Shown one piece after another: positions 3,733 through 32,244 of a DNA stretch of 37,198 nucleotides. Position 1 is the stretch's first letter. Every line of letters starts with the position of its first letter. The stretch covers positions 1-37,198 of the forward strand of contig CALJMD010000004.1 in assembly GCA_937981915.1 (NCBI GenBank), given 5' to 3'. Under the pieces are notes generated by a model that saw nothing but the letters and a program-made list of their open reading frames with translations, was not told the origin of the DNA and did not search any database. This stretch comes from an uncultured Acidimicrobiales bacterium (GTDB lineage: Bacteria > Actinomycetota > Acidimicrobiia > Acidimicrobiales > SZUA-35). The translations under genes were made by a program, and so were the position numbers.

Positions 3733-5046
3733 CTAGGGCATCGGCTTCCATGAACCGTCGACACCGAGATACTCGGCCGGACGATCGCCGTCGCCCGATC
3801 CACGGTAGAAGCCTTCGGCTCCCGCGTCGCGGGCGGTGGCCAGCATCGACGGCACCTCGCCGCCTTCCGCCTCGATCCGCTCAATAACTCGAGTCGTCCC
3901 GATGGCGTCCAGCATTTCGAACGGTCCGAGTGCCCAGTTGAAGCCCCAACGGATGGCGTTGTCGACGTTCACGATGTCATCGGCGATCTCTGGCACCAAA
4001 CCGGCCGCATAGCGCAGCGTGCCACCAAAGATCTGCCACGCCAGCTGGCCTTGCGGTGTGTCAGTGAACATCACTTCACCCAGGTCGCCGGGGACTCCTT
4101 CGAGATCCGGTTCTGCTGCGTCTCGCCACTCGCCGGATTGAAGATCAAACGTGAGCTTCTTCTTCGCCCCGTCGTCCAGCTTCTCGACCTTGCCGAATCC
4201 GCCGACAGCTCGGGCTTTGCGCCCCAGTTGCCCTCGCTCCAACATGGCCTGCTCAGTCTCCGGGAAAGACGTGTAGGCAAGGCCGGCGTCGCCCTCCGGT
4301 AGGTTCACGGCCAAGTTCTTACCCACCAAGTCCATCACGTCCAAGCCGATCAGGTCGATTAGACCGTACAGGCCGGTGGGAGGCAGCCCGACCGGCCTGC
4401 CCAATACTGCGTCGATTGTCTCCTGGTTCATACCGTCGGCCAGGAACGGCTTGGCTAGGTGCAGCCCGGACAACATGAAGTAGCAGCCGATGCGGTTGGC
4501 GATGAAGTTCACGGTGTCTTTGGCGTGAACAACTCCCTTGCCCAGCTTGTCGGCACCGAACGCGCTGAGCGCCTCGATGACGTCAGGACTGGTCGACTCG
4601 CCCGGCACCAGCTCGAGCAACTTCATGACCTGAACTGGATTGAAGAAGTGGGTGATGGCCACATCGTTCAGCAGGCGGTCGCCTTGGCCGTCGGTGAGGT
4701 CCCGCAGCGGAATGCCGGAGGTGTTCGAGGTGATAACCGAACCCTCGCGACGTAGCGGCTCGATCTTGGCGAAAAGTTCGCGCTTTACGTCGACGTCTTC
4801 GACGATGGCTTCACAGATCCAGTCGTAGTCGGCGATCAGTTCGAGATCGTCGCCGAGTGAACCAACAGCGACCAAGTGACGGTGCTCCTTGTCGACCTTT
4901 TCGCGGGCGGCGGCTGCCGCATCGGCGGTCACATCCAGCATGAGAACTTTGCAGCCTTGAGCGGCCGAGATGGCGGCAATACCTGAGCCCATCGTTCCAC
5001 ATCCGAGGACTGCTACCGATTCGATTTGTCGTGCCATGGGAAGCAT
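3733..5046 (-). CDS. 3-hydroxyacyl-CoA dehydrogenase
   Basis: Rossmann VAVLGCGTMGSGIAAISAAQG; SNTSGIPL; THFFNPVQVMKLLELVPG. Confidence 0.93.
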   Translation of the reverse strand: MLPMARQIESVAVLGCGTMGSGIAAISAAQGCKVLMLDVTADAAAAAREKVDKEHRHLVAVGSLGDDLELIADYDWICEAIVEDVDVKRELFAKIEPLRREGSVITSNTSGIPLRDLTDGQGDRLLNDVAITHFFNPVQVMKLLELVPGESTSPDVIEALSAFGADKLGKGVVHAKDTVNFIANRIGCYFMLSGLHLAKPFLADGMNQETIDAVLGRPVGLPPTGLYGLIDLIGLDVMDLVGKNLAVNLPEGDAGLAYTSFPETEQAMLERGQLGRKARAVGGFGKVEKLDDGAKKKLTFDLQSGEWRDAAEPDLEGVPGDLGEVMFTDTPQGQLAWQIFGGTLRYAAGLVPEIADDIVNVDNAIRWGFNWALGPFEMLDAIGTTRVIERIEAEGGEVPSMLATARDAGAEGFYRGSGDGDRPAEYLGVDGSWKPMP

Positions 5047-5101
5047 TCTGGCAGCGCAAAACGCCGATCCCGCCTCCTCCCAGACCGGAATGTGGCAAGC
5101 C

Positions 5102-6493
5102 TCAGCTAGTGGTGAAGCCCTTGCGAACCTGCTGGCCCCATTCGGTGCGACCGGCCAGGTACAGGCGAACGCCCCACAGACGCCAGATCATCGTCAAATG
5201 CCGGTAGAAGAGCTGCTCCACGACGGCGTAGAACGCCAACCGCAGCCGATACCGAGTCTTCGGGTAGGACCGAAACGAGTGGTCGTCAAACCACAAGGTC
5301 ATGATTGTCACGGCGGCGCCGAAACCGTACGCCGCCCCCAGAAGCCACAGCGCCCCGGGATCGATGACGCCAGTTGCGATGGCGACACCGAGGATGATCA
5401 AACTCAAGATTTCGACGACCGGCGACAGGAACTCCACCAACAGAAAGTACGGCATGGCCAACATTCCGGCCGTCCCGTACTTCGGGTTGAAGACCATGCG
5501 CTGATGGCGGTTCAAAACATCAAGCAGGCCGCGCTGCCAGCGGTTTCGTTGCCGGGCCAGCACACGCAGGTCCTCGGGAGCTTCGGTCCACGCCACCGGG
5601 TCAGGCAGAAAGTCGACTCGAGCGAATCGCTTCTCCTCGTAGCCGTGTCGGCGTAGCCGCACGATCAGCTCCATGTCCTCCCCGATGGACGAACGTTCGT
5701 AGCCACCGGCTTCAAGAACATCGTCTCGCCGGAAGACCCCGAACGCACCGGAAATGATCAAGTTTCCACCTAGCGGATTCCAGCCCAACCGGCCCACGAT
5801 GAACGCTCGGATGTACTCGACCACCTGAAGCGCCGGGAGTGTCTTCTTTGGAACCACCAGTTCGACGACCCGGCTGCCTTTGACCGGCGAGTCGTTGGTG
5901 AGTCGAACGGTGCCGCCTGCTGCCACTGTCTGCTCGTTTAAGAGGAACGGCACGACCAGATGCTGCATGGCTTCGGGGGCGACGAGCGTGTCGGCGTCGA
6001 TGGCACAAATCAGATCTCCACCAGCGACGTTCAAACCGGCATTGAGCGAGTCGGCTTTGCCGCCGTTGAACTTGTCGACCAGCACCAGTCGCGGTTCGCG
6101 GCGGGACCGGTAGATGCTCTTAACATCGGCCGTAGCGATCACCTTCTGGAAGATCGGGTGAACGGGTTGAAGGTCGAAACGGTCGATCAGCACCTCGGCG
6201 GTTCGGTCGGGCGAACCGTCGTTGATCACCAGGATTTCCAGGTTCGGGTAGGACAACGCCAGAAGACCGAGAACCGTGTCGGTCACCGTCACTTCCTCGT
6301 TGTAGGCGGGAACCAGAATGGAGATCTTGGGCACCAGGGGCGAGCTCATTACTCTGCGCCACACCTGATGACGGTCGCGTTGGCGCAGGCGCCGGAGCTC
6401 CACCATGGCGGCAACGACAATGATCAGCTGAAGGAACGTGACCGAGACCACCCACAACGCGGTCCAGTAGTCAACCAGGCGAGAGAAATTCAC
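5102..6493 (-). CDS. Family 2 processive-type glycosyltransferase, membrane protein
   Basis: ISILVPAYNEEVTVTDTVLGLL, VINDGSPDRT, CAIDADTLV, GEDMELIVRLRRHGY, RQRNRWQRGLLDV (QxxRW), multiple TM segments. Confidence 0.92.
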   Translation of the reverse strand: MNFSRLVDYWTALWVVSVTFLQLIIVVAAMVELRRLRQRDRHQVWRRVMSSPLVPKISILVPAYNEEVTVTDTVLGLLALSYPNLEILVINDGSPDRTAEVLIDRFDLQPVHPIFQKVIATADVKSIYRSRREPRLVLVDKFNGGKADSLNAGLNVAGGDLICAIDADTLVAPEAMQHLVVPFLLNEQTVAAGGTVRLTNDSPVKGSRVVELVVPKKTLPALQVVEYIRAFIVGRLGWNPLGGNLIISGAFGVFRRDDVLEAGGYERSSIGEDMELIVRLRRHGYEEKRFARVDFLPDPVAWTEAPEDLRVLARQRNRWQRGLLDVLNRHQRMVFNPKYGTAGMLAMPYFLLVEFLSPVVEILSLIILGVAIATGVIDPGALWLLGAAYGFGAAVTIMTLWFDDHSFRSYPKTRYRLRLAFYAVVEQLFYRHLTMIWRLWGVRLYLAGRTEWGQQVRKGFTTS

Positions 6494-7605
6494 AGCCAGA
6501 AGCCGATCGCCGCGTAGGGGTCCGGTTCGTCGAGGCCTTCGAGCGGGTCGTGGGCCGGCGTGGTGATATCAAGCCCGCTGCGGGCAGCGGCGCCGTCCAG
6601 AACCTGGCGGGCCATGTCCCGGGCGAATTGGTCAGGATCTTCCAGGTGCCGTCGCAGGGAGAGGTGGCCGGCCGGTCGCAGGTCGTCGAGCGCCTGGCCT
6701 GCGGCGCGGCGGACGTTGAAGCTCTGATCAGCCAGACATCGTCCAATCCGGGTGACTGCGGTCATCACGCCGAGTCGGGCCAATGCCTCGATGGCGTTGA
6801 CTCGAACCTCGGCCACCGGATCCTGCAACATCTGTTCCAGTAGTCCAACGGCCATGGTGCCGGTGCCGTTGCCCAACACGTTGGCGGCCATAGCCCGTAT
6901 CTGTTCGTCGTGAGACCGGGCCAGCCCGATCACCGAGTCGACGAGACGTAGGTCGGGCAAGTGGGCGGCTACCCCGAGCGCCTGCATCACCATGGGGTGC
7001 TGGTCGCCGTCGAGGTGTTCCAGCAGACCGGGCACCGCCAACGGCCCGGCTTGGAGCAATGAATGTTGAGCACTCAACCGAACGGCCGGCGAACGGTCAG
7101 ACAGGAGCGTCAGCATGAGAGTGACATGGTCAGCGGCTTCGGTCGCCGCCATTGCTTCGGCCGCACGAGCTCGAACCAGCGGACTCGGGTCGGTGAGTAG
7201 ACCTGACCGGTCGAAATCAGGGTGGGTGATCAAGTGATGGAGTTGGGCCGCCTGAACACGAACCCGCCACCGTTTGCTCGATGCCTTCTTAATGATATGT
7301 TTCTCCAGCCCGGTGCTTCTCACTAACGTTCTGAGGCGTTCGTTCGCTTGGCCATCGAGGTCGACGGCCAAACTCTGAACAACATCGAGCAGCGGACGGG
7401 TCGGCAGGGCCAGTACCCGATGGAAGACGGCACCGGCTTCGTTGTGCGTGCCGAAAAGGACCACTTCCAACACCGAGAGAACTCGCTGTCGGGTAGCGTC
7501 GTTGCGCCGCACGACAAGATCCTTGGCAAAGCCCGTAATCAAATACAGCAGCGTCATGACACCGACGGTGGCCCAGGCGACGACAAAGATGGCAAACCGG
7601 TCCAT
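6490..7605 (-). CDS. HEAT-repeat protein with N-terminal TM segment
   Basis: Repeated 'VRARAAEAMAA', 'PAVRLSAQHSLLQAG', 'AEVRVNAIEALARLG', 'FNVRRAAGQALDDL'; N-terminal hydrophobic helix. Confidence 0.85.
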   Translation of the reverse strand: MDRFAIFVVAWATVGVMTLLYLITGFAKDLVVRRNDATRQRVLSVLEVVLFGTHNEAGAVFHRVLALPTRPLLDVVQSLAVDLDGQANERLRTLVRSTGLEKHIIKKASSKRWRVRVQAAQLHHLITHPDFDRSGLLTDPSPLVRARAAEAMAATEAADHVTLMLTLLSDRSPAVRLSAQHSLLQAGPLAVPGLLEHLDGDQHPMVMQALGVAAHLPDLRLVDSVIGLARSHDEQIRAMAANVLGNGTGTMAVGLLEQMLQDPVAEVRVNAIEALARLGVMTAVTRIGRCLADQSFNVRRAAGQALDDLRPAGHLSLRRHLEDPDQFARDMARQVLDGAAARSGLDITTPAHDPLEGLDEPDPYAAIGFWL

Positions 7606-29980: not shown

Positions 29981-31099
29981 CTACGAGCCGGCGACCGGTA
30001 CGTTCCCCGATGACCGCCAGAATGCGCCGTCGGGGAAGAAGGTGGTGTAGTCCGCCGGGAACGAGGTGAATCCCGGTAGCACGTCGAGGTTGCCGCCGTC
30101 GCCGGAACGCTGCACACCCCGTTCGGCGGTCCATCGACCGGAACCGTCGGCGGCCACCAAGTCATCACCCGAACGTTCCAGTTCGACGGTTCGCCCGTCA
30201 ATCAGCCGGGAGTACACGGCCCAGTCGTCGCTGTCGTCGTCGACGGTGACGGCCACCGGTATCCCACCGACGTTGGTGTTGACGACGCCGGCCTGTCGAA
30301 GTTCGCTGACCGGGAACGCCACTGACTCAGAACCGAATTCGACCACGATGGCCATCTGGGCCAGCGCGAACCCGCTCATCCGCGCCGGGGCGTCGAGGGC
30401 GACGGTGTCGGGGTGTCGTTCAAGCCAGTCACCCCATTCGGTCAACGTGGACGCCAACAGGTCCAGCCTGGTCCCGGTCAACGGCCCGAGGATCGCTTCA
30501 CCGATGGGTTGACTCCACACGCTGCCGGTTTCGTGATCGAACCAGGTCATGGCGTTGCCCCATAGATCTCCCTGATTGCCCAATACCAGTGGCCTACCAT
30601 CTACTTCTCGGCGATGGACCATCGCCGTTCCGCACAGCGGTCACCAGGTGACAAACGTCGGAATGCCTCGATGCATGTCGACGACGATCTCTCGCCTGGT
30701 CAGAAACCCGATCGGGTACGCTCTGGCGTCTCCGTCGATCTCGACACCGATGATCAACTCGTCGCTGGGCCAATCAGTGTTTTCGACGGTTCGGAACTTC
30801 GGGGCGTACACCGGGAAGATACCGTCGCGGGGTAGTACCGGGCGATAGCCGTCGGGAAGCGATTCTCCCGCTGCCACCGGATCGAAGAGGTCGGAGGGGA
30901 TTTGGGCAGACGCTCCCTCCCAGCCGTCGGGGTGGAACGAATCCTGCGAGCTGCCAGGCCCGGAGTCGGCGGGAACAAAAACCACTACGGCGATGACCGC
31001 CAGGGCGGCGGCCAACGACACCAGCACGCCAACTGACAATGCCGGGCTAGGGCGGTGTGTCTCATCAAACTCGGGGAGAAACGGGTCGTCGTGAGCCAC
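29981..31099 (-). CDS. DUF3179-domain membrane-anchored protein with one in-frame TGA, candidate selenoprotein
   Basis: ORFs 30641-31099 and 29981-30622 are in the same frame, separated by one TGA plus 6 sense codons; read-through gives ...RREIVVDMHRGIPTFVTW[TGA]PLCGTAMVHRREVDGRPLVLGNQGDLWGNAMTWFDHETGSVWSQPIGEAILGPLTGTRL..., with TGA at the family CPLC first Cys. N-terminal TM helix. Confidence 0.8.
30609..30627 (-). promoter_or_regulatory. Putative bacterial SECIS-like hairpin downstream of the in-frame TGA
   Basis: Minus strand 5' CGGCGAUG-GUC-CAUCGCCG 3': perfect 8-bp stem (apex GGUC), beginning 13 nt after the TGA at 30643-30641. Confidence 0.65.
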
Positions 31100-31173: not shown

Positions 31174-32244
31174 ATGATGATCGCATCGCAGCTGGTAGCG
31201 CTGTTGGACGGGTTTGGGCTGGCGGTGACGCTGCCCATCGGGCTGGTGGTGACGGCCTTTGGGTTCGGGGTCCGCCACGGTTTCGATTGGGATCACATCG
31301 CCGCGATTTCCGATCTGAGCGGCTCGGTCGAGAGCCGCCGCCGTGGCCTGGCGTTGTCGATGATGTACGCCCTCGGTCACGCGGCAGCCGTTCTTGTGCT
31401 CGGTCTGATCATTGTGGTGATCGGTTCATCGATTCCCGATCAGGTGGCGGACCCATTGGAGCGATGGATGGGTCGAGTGGTCGGCTTTACTCTCGTAGCG
31501 CTGGGTCTTTGGATCTTGATCGAGCTGGTGCGCAAGGGGCGCGACTTCCGGCTTCGGAGCCGTTGGATGTTGGTGTTGCAGGGCACGTTCGCCGGCGTTC
31601 GGCGGGTTCATCGCTCCTTGGATCCCCGAACGCGCAAGACGGTTCGCCACCTCGAGGTGGAACACGAACATCCTCACCCGCATGACGATGTTGACCCGTC
31701 GGGCGGGTCGACCCATGACGATGTGCAGGCCCATGATCACGCTCATATGGCTGAACCGGCTGCCGTTGCCGCCGAACCGGTGGCCGCTCTGTCGGAGGCG
31801 TCAGTCGGTTCCCTCGGGCATTCCCACGCCACTCACGACATCGATCTAGGCCAGAGCGAGGTTGACAGTCACAGCCACGGTCACAGTCTCAGTGACAGTC
31901 ATAGTCACCGGCACAGTCACAAAATGGCCCTAGGCGATCTTGGTGGAGGCACCGCGGTTGGTGTCGGGGTGTTGCACGGGGTAGGCGTGGAAAGCCCGAC
32001 TCAGATCGCCTTGTTTACGGCGTCGGCCTCGGTTGGACAGGGCTGGGCGGCCCTTGCATTGCTGGTCGCCTGGGTTTGCGGCCTTGTGGTGGCCAACGGC
32101 GTGTTGGCGGTGGTAGCCGGATTCGGCCTGCTGCAAGCCGAGCGCTATTTCGCTGTGTACGCCACGGTGGTGGTGTTGGTGGCGCTGCTGAGCATCGCCA
32201 TGGGCGGCGCACTTATAGCCGACGTTGCTCTACCGCTGCCCTGA
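31174..32244 (+). CDS. NiCoT-family nickel/cobalt transporter-like protein with long His-rich loop
   Basis: RHGFDWDHIAAISD matches the HX4DH NiCoT signature; multiple TM segments; His-rich insert EHEHPHPHDD...HSHGHSLSDSHSHRHSHK. Confidence 0.85.
   Translation: MMIASQLVALLDGFGLAVTLPIGLVVTAFGFGVRHGFDWDHIAAISDLSGSVESRRRGLALSMMYALGHAAAVLVLGLIIVVIGSSIPDQVADPLERWMGRVVGFTLVALGLWILIELVRKGRDFRLRSRWMLVLQGTFAGVRRVHRSLDPRTRKTVRHLEVEHEHPHPHDDVDPSGGSTHDDVQAHDHAHMAEPAAVAAEPVAALSEASVGSLGHSHATHDIDLGQSEVDSHSHGHSLSDSHSHRHSHKMALGDLGGGTAVGVGVLHGVGVESPTQIALFTASASVGQGWAALALLVAWVCGLVVANGVLAVVAGFGLLQAERYFAVYATVVVLVALLSIAMGGALIADVALPLP

Follow-up and report, generated by a model that had tools for sequence, protein, structure and literature searches.

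An in-frame TGA divides a DUF3179 gene in the genome of an uncultured Acidimicrobiales bacterium, and the question is whether this codon ends the protein or encodes selenocysteine (Sec). The gene lies on the minus strand at 29981–31099 of the window, the whole 37,198-nucleotide stretch of DNA that was analysed. Its read-through runs from GTG through TTTGTCACCTGG-TGA-CCGCTGTGCGGAACGGCGATG to TAG, giving a coding region of 372 residues with Sec at position 153, the GTG start being uncertain. Codon 153 (30643–30641) is the sole in-frame stop between GTG and TAG; it provides the first position of a U-P-L-C motif and is shared with homologues. The ORF list shows the two halves as separate entries of 152 and 213 aa. 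Read as one protein, the sequence matches the DUF3179 profile (PF11376) with an E-value of 9.9e-53 and 179.9 bits, above the gathering score of 27, and the coding region is conserved from end to end among relatives. A sequence-only reading had described a candidate selenoprotein in which the two ORFs are one frame, broken by a single TGA in place of the first Cys of the CPLC motif. This is what the minus strand contains, and homologues carry either TGA or Cys at the codon; this alternation, a conserved hairpin, and Sec machinery in the genome or genus all support Sec. We regard insertion of Sec at residue 153 as very probable, and the locus is almost certainly a real selenoprotein gene, neither an error nor a pseudogene.

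Sec has been associated with this family before. A 2022 review (PMC9312934) lists DUF3179 with UxxC/T as a prokaryotic selenoprotein family, and a 2026 review (PMC13188914) lists it again. The 2022 review credits a 2007 study, which the two reviews identify as Zhang and Gladyshev, NAR 35:4952, on an Olavius algarvensis symbiont. The earlier hint that no Sec form of DUF3179 was established is thus mistaken, and the gene is therefore an added member of a known family. By their published description, the known proteins belong to the same Pfam family and have a UxxC motif with Sec first. They are described from a deltaproteobacterial symbiont, whereas the genes here form a large clade in Acidimicrobiia whose hairpin hardly varies. 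The groundwater survey of metagenome-assembled genomes (MAGs) cited in PMC13188914 may already contain the Acidimicrobiia form; our literature search found no paper tying selenoproteins to Acidimicrobiia, though one may exist elsewhere. The present analysis contributes the clade in Acidimicrobiia, the covariation of the hairpin, the controls provided by Cys forms, the internal duplication of the protein, and an AlphaFold model with Rieske-type matches. A predicted exported Sec protein is widespread in Acidimicrobiia, in a gene that a standard gene caller cuts in two.

TGA and cysteine at the codon among homologues

Around 85,000 species genomes were scanned with six peptide patterns, none of which spans the TGA. 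This gave 42 loci, with titles that are mostly Acidimicrobiia or Acidimicrobiales. The site is readable in 41 of the 42, where 40 of 42 genes have TGA and two have a Cys codon; the latter are the first copy at a tandem locus (L045), adjoining a TGA copy, and L056. Judged from these sequences, such recurrence among homologues sampled blind to the codon is far beyond chance, and it is not the case that the closest relatives all have TGC, which had been named as grounds for rejecting Sec. Further TGA genes are present in the same genus, family and class and in other classes of the phylum, the genome searches for TGA forms having been centred on the window's own phylum. The source genome (G000) itself has another DUF3179 gene (contig C55:4190–4577, L113) that shows the same TGA and the beginning of the same hairpin before the contig end truncates it.

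Sec and Cys alternate at this column of the DUF3179 alignment, the pairing that the sequence-only reading had suggested examining. Among 53 aligned DUF3179 proteins position 153 is always U or C, while position 156, the Cys partner of Sec153 in UxxC (30632–30634, minus strand), is always C. In the tree a 100/100 branch separates the ordinary Cys paralogues from a clade made up of the TGA genes together with three Cys orthologues, and the placement of these orthologues within the clade requires three separate TGA-to-Cys changes. At the tandem locus the two DUF3179 genes (4923–5996 and 6150–7157) are one Cys and one TGA form, and the Cys copy keeps the full hairpin.

A sequencing error or recent nonsense mutation, leaving a pseudogene or an unwanted truncated protein, might be entertained for a gene from a draft MAG, and one relative has truly decayed: the 42nd locus (L057, 4900–5400) holds the frameshifted remains of a Sec-type DUF3179 gene, reading W-TGA-PLW. 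But dozens of independent assemblies share the TGA, and neither TAA nor TAG occurs at the Sec codon in any homologue examined. Moreover the downstream half keeps 45–77% identity among relatives and has dN/dS of 0.16–0.34 in five pairs, which is purifying selection. Error or decay is extremely improbable.

An RNA hairpin downstream of the UGA

A bSECIS-like hairpin, CGGCGAUG-GUC-CAUCGCCG, is found at 30609–30627 on the minus strand, with a stem of 8 bp and a 3-nt loop that opens with GU. The stem starts 13 nt past the UGA and the loop lies 21 nt past it, and the 45 nt counted from the UGA fold at –17.6 kcal/mol. The bSECIS rule, as summarized in PMC13188914, calls for a loop of 3–9 nt with G within its first two positions, a stem of 4–16 bp, a distance of 16–37 nt from the UGA and an MFE of at most –7.5. 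The hairpin agrees with all of these in its GUC loop, 8-bp stem, spacing of 21 nt and low MFE. An Rfam scan of the window identified one tRNA and nothing else.

The hairpin is present in all 46 distinct TGA genes, 45 with all eight pairs and one with a single mismatch, and the loop is GUC or GUU throughout; the clade-wide form is CGGCGAUG-GUY-CAUCGYCG. Conservation on this scale disposes of the earlier reservation that hairpin conservation might be lacking. In a table of 43 genes the codons ACG, GCG and CAT are fixed within the hairpin while other codons of the gene vary, and synonymous diversity in the hairpin codons is ~2.7-fold lower than in the rest of the gene. With the peptide TAMVHRR and genic codon usage held fixed, full pairing has a chance probability of 0.0045 per sequence; all 43 TGA genes encoding TAMVHRR are fully paired, but these genes are related and hence not independent.

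Since the stem is mostly invariant, the case rests on the synonymous invariance together with four contrasts. In L144, from another class, the hairpin is GGGAAUG-GUC-CAUUCCC, with two compensatory pairs (C–G to G–C and G–C to A–U), and these changes alter two amino acids, Ala to Gly and Arg to Ser. L143 has a TGC codon and keeps the peptide CGTAMVHRREL, with TAMVHRR identical, but synonymous changes have destroyed the hairpin, leaving five of the eight pairs. The hairpin is gone from the Cys orthologues L056 and L092. The exception among Cys forms is the tandem locus L045, which has an intact hairpin in a genome that retains selB and selC; its Cys copy looks like a recent reversion. The remaining Cys forms are without the hairpin, two paralogues having seven of eight pairs. 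At the level of sequence, the comparison shows that the UGA is coding, and that this state is linked to the SECIS-like hairpin in Sec-competent genomes. It is an unusually clean comparative case for Sec coding, in which UGA and hairpin are gained and lost together, and in which compensatory changes and Cys reversions serve as natural controls.

Could the gene instead make two proteins, with termination at the UGA and a restart 18 nt on at the ATG (30622) that begins the second ORF? Every one of the 43 TGA genes in the codon table has this ATG. It falls within the hairpin, though, and an 8-bp stem covering it would be expected to impede initiation. The residues P-L-C between UGA and ATG are fixed as protein while their codons vary synonymously, the stop codon is invariably TGA, the Cys orthologues are single continuous proteins with the same residues, and the first of two structural repeats would be split. 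Such a restart is most improbable.

The selenocysteine machinery

The source genome is a draft assembly, 88% complete in 484 contigs. It contains selB above the cut-off, and directly upstream an ORF that reads as SelA by its sequence rather than by a profile match. The selD gene (368 bits; contig C214:36251–37180, minus strand, L058) itself encodes a selenoprotein, with an in-frame TGA in SHGAG-U-ACK, a form that with its downstream hairpins is common to most relatives having selD. SelD thus shares with the DUF3179 gene an in-frame UGA followed by hairpins, but it is a selenophosphate synthetase and is not exported. The SelB sequence of the source genome (G000:C17:29352–30488; L008, L013) matches its family model in separate pieces, as do those of G008 and G010; SelB of other relatives gives one continuous match.

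Of the four genes that the sequence-only reading had proposed to seek, selB, selD and a SelA-like ORF are present, and the search of the 88%-complete draft gave no selC. The weak tRNA-Sec candidates there are tRNAs for Ser, Leu, Arg, Cys, Lys and Trp. The absence, which had been put forward as an argument against Sec, applies to this draft and not to the genus: of 11 further genomes searched within the genus (RF01852), 10 have selC, the exception being G010, and ARAGORN confirms tRNA-SeC(tca) in relatives. Three genomes with the UGA form (G010, G023 and G030) gave no selC. As selC sits at a contig edge in several relatives (G006, G018, G008 and G460), its loss during assembly is plausible.

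Across 61 genomes, selB scores over the cut-off in all 13 that bear the TGA form (p = 0.011). No significant association of selC with the UGA form was found in these genomes (p = 0.57), most of which have selC regardless. One genome (G104) has the Cys form while keeping both selB and selC, indicating that a Cys replacement can arise even where these genes are retained.

These data bear also on the idea that the UGA specifies Trp or Cys, either because the code has been reassigned or through leaky readthrough. Homologues do have Cys here, and UGA is generally the leakiest stop codon. Yet TGA is the usual terminator in the window, ending 16 of 26 apparent genes; SelB, a SelA-like ORF and a Sec-type SelD are encoded; and the SECIS-like hairpin goes with TGA at this codon. 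We consider decoding as another amino acid highly improbable. For Sec insertion we propose, with strong comparative support, that SelB, on which the process would depend, binds the hairpin just 3′ of the UGA and brings Sec-tRNA(Sec) to the ribosome, which would place Sec at residue 153 instead of stopping.

Architecture and probable function of the protein

The AlphaFold model (pLDDT 92) has an N-terminal helix followed by two beta-rich repeats. Residues 19–40 (30980–31045, minus strand) form a predicted transmembrane helix, from the hydrophobic sequence and the modelled helix, and lack a lipobox. Repeat 1 (residues 85–235; 30395–30847, minus strand; pLDDT 92) carries the UxxC, and repeat 2 (residues 236–372; 29984–30394, minus strand) has the same architecture without a CxxC. 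Profile comparison by hhalign (probability 99, E 2e-18) indicates that the two are homologous, the product of an internal duplication with UxxC confined to the first. The single helix is predicted to anchor the protein, with both beta domains outside the cytoplasm. The Cys-type DUF3179 proteins of the same bacteria (CPLCNSA and similar forms) share the two-part fold and the invariant CxxC position; they differ in having Cys for Sec, in lacking the hairpin and, in many, in a lipobox-like N-terminus, and are 26–33% identical to the Sec form.

What might the UxxC do? Because its positions are invariant as U or C, and because DsbD_TM and redoxin genes lie near some relatives, a redox role is suggested. 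The U-P-L-C pair of the first domain would most likely alternate between a selenol/thiol form and a selenenylsulfide bond, and the product would be an extracytoplasmic oxidoreductase. We favour use of UxxC in redox, with some reserve, and an extracytoplasmic selenol/thiol redox protein is the likely role. DUF3179 is a family without known function, for which there is now a structural model of high confidence and an active site that can be put to the test.

NCBIfam and PDB sequence searches found no relative of the protein. In a Foldseek search of the model against the PDB, every match above probability 0.9 is to a Rieske-type domain (TM by target at most 0.6), the best having E 3e-3 and probability 1.00, and the model of a Cys paralogue gives matches of the same kind, though weaker (probability 0.75 and 0.63). 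From these matches one might suppose that Sec is inserted but that UxxC binds metal rather than acting in redox catalysis, on a Rieske-like scaffold minus the usual cluster ligands. The E-values are all above 1e-3, hhalign against a Rieske profile (of only 7 sequences) gives a probability of 0.3%, and the alignment of DUF3179 proteins has no invariant pairs corresponding to the Rieske ligands CxH and CxxH. A metal site is unlikely, and with neither sequence-level support nor conserved ligands the Rieske likeness itself stays a lead. Only a little less doubtful is a further proposal retaining the redox role, in which DUF3179 would be a duplicated exported Rieske-like beta fold whose Sec-x-x-Cys redox pair replaces the iron–sulfur ligand loop for an extracytoplasmic reaction, Sec being kept by selection in Acidimicrobiia. 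If true, this selenoprotein would have an architecture other than the thioredoxin-like fold.

No neighbouring gene is conserved across the clade. A DsbD_TM gene is found near six relatives, five of which also have a redoxin gene nearby; together with a NicO-type neighbour these would provide the sole supporting context for the proposed insertion, location and redox role. The NicO-type transporter gene, with a His-rich loop, lies at 31174–32244 on the plus strand, divergent from the DUF3179 gene, and the same arrangement is found in L016.
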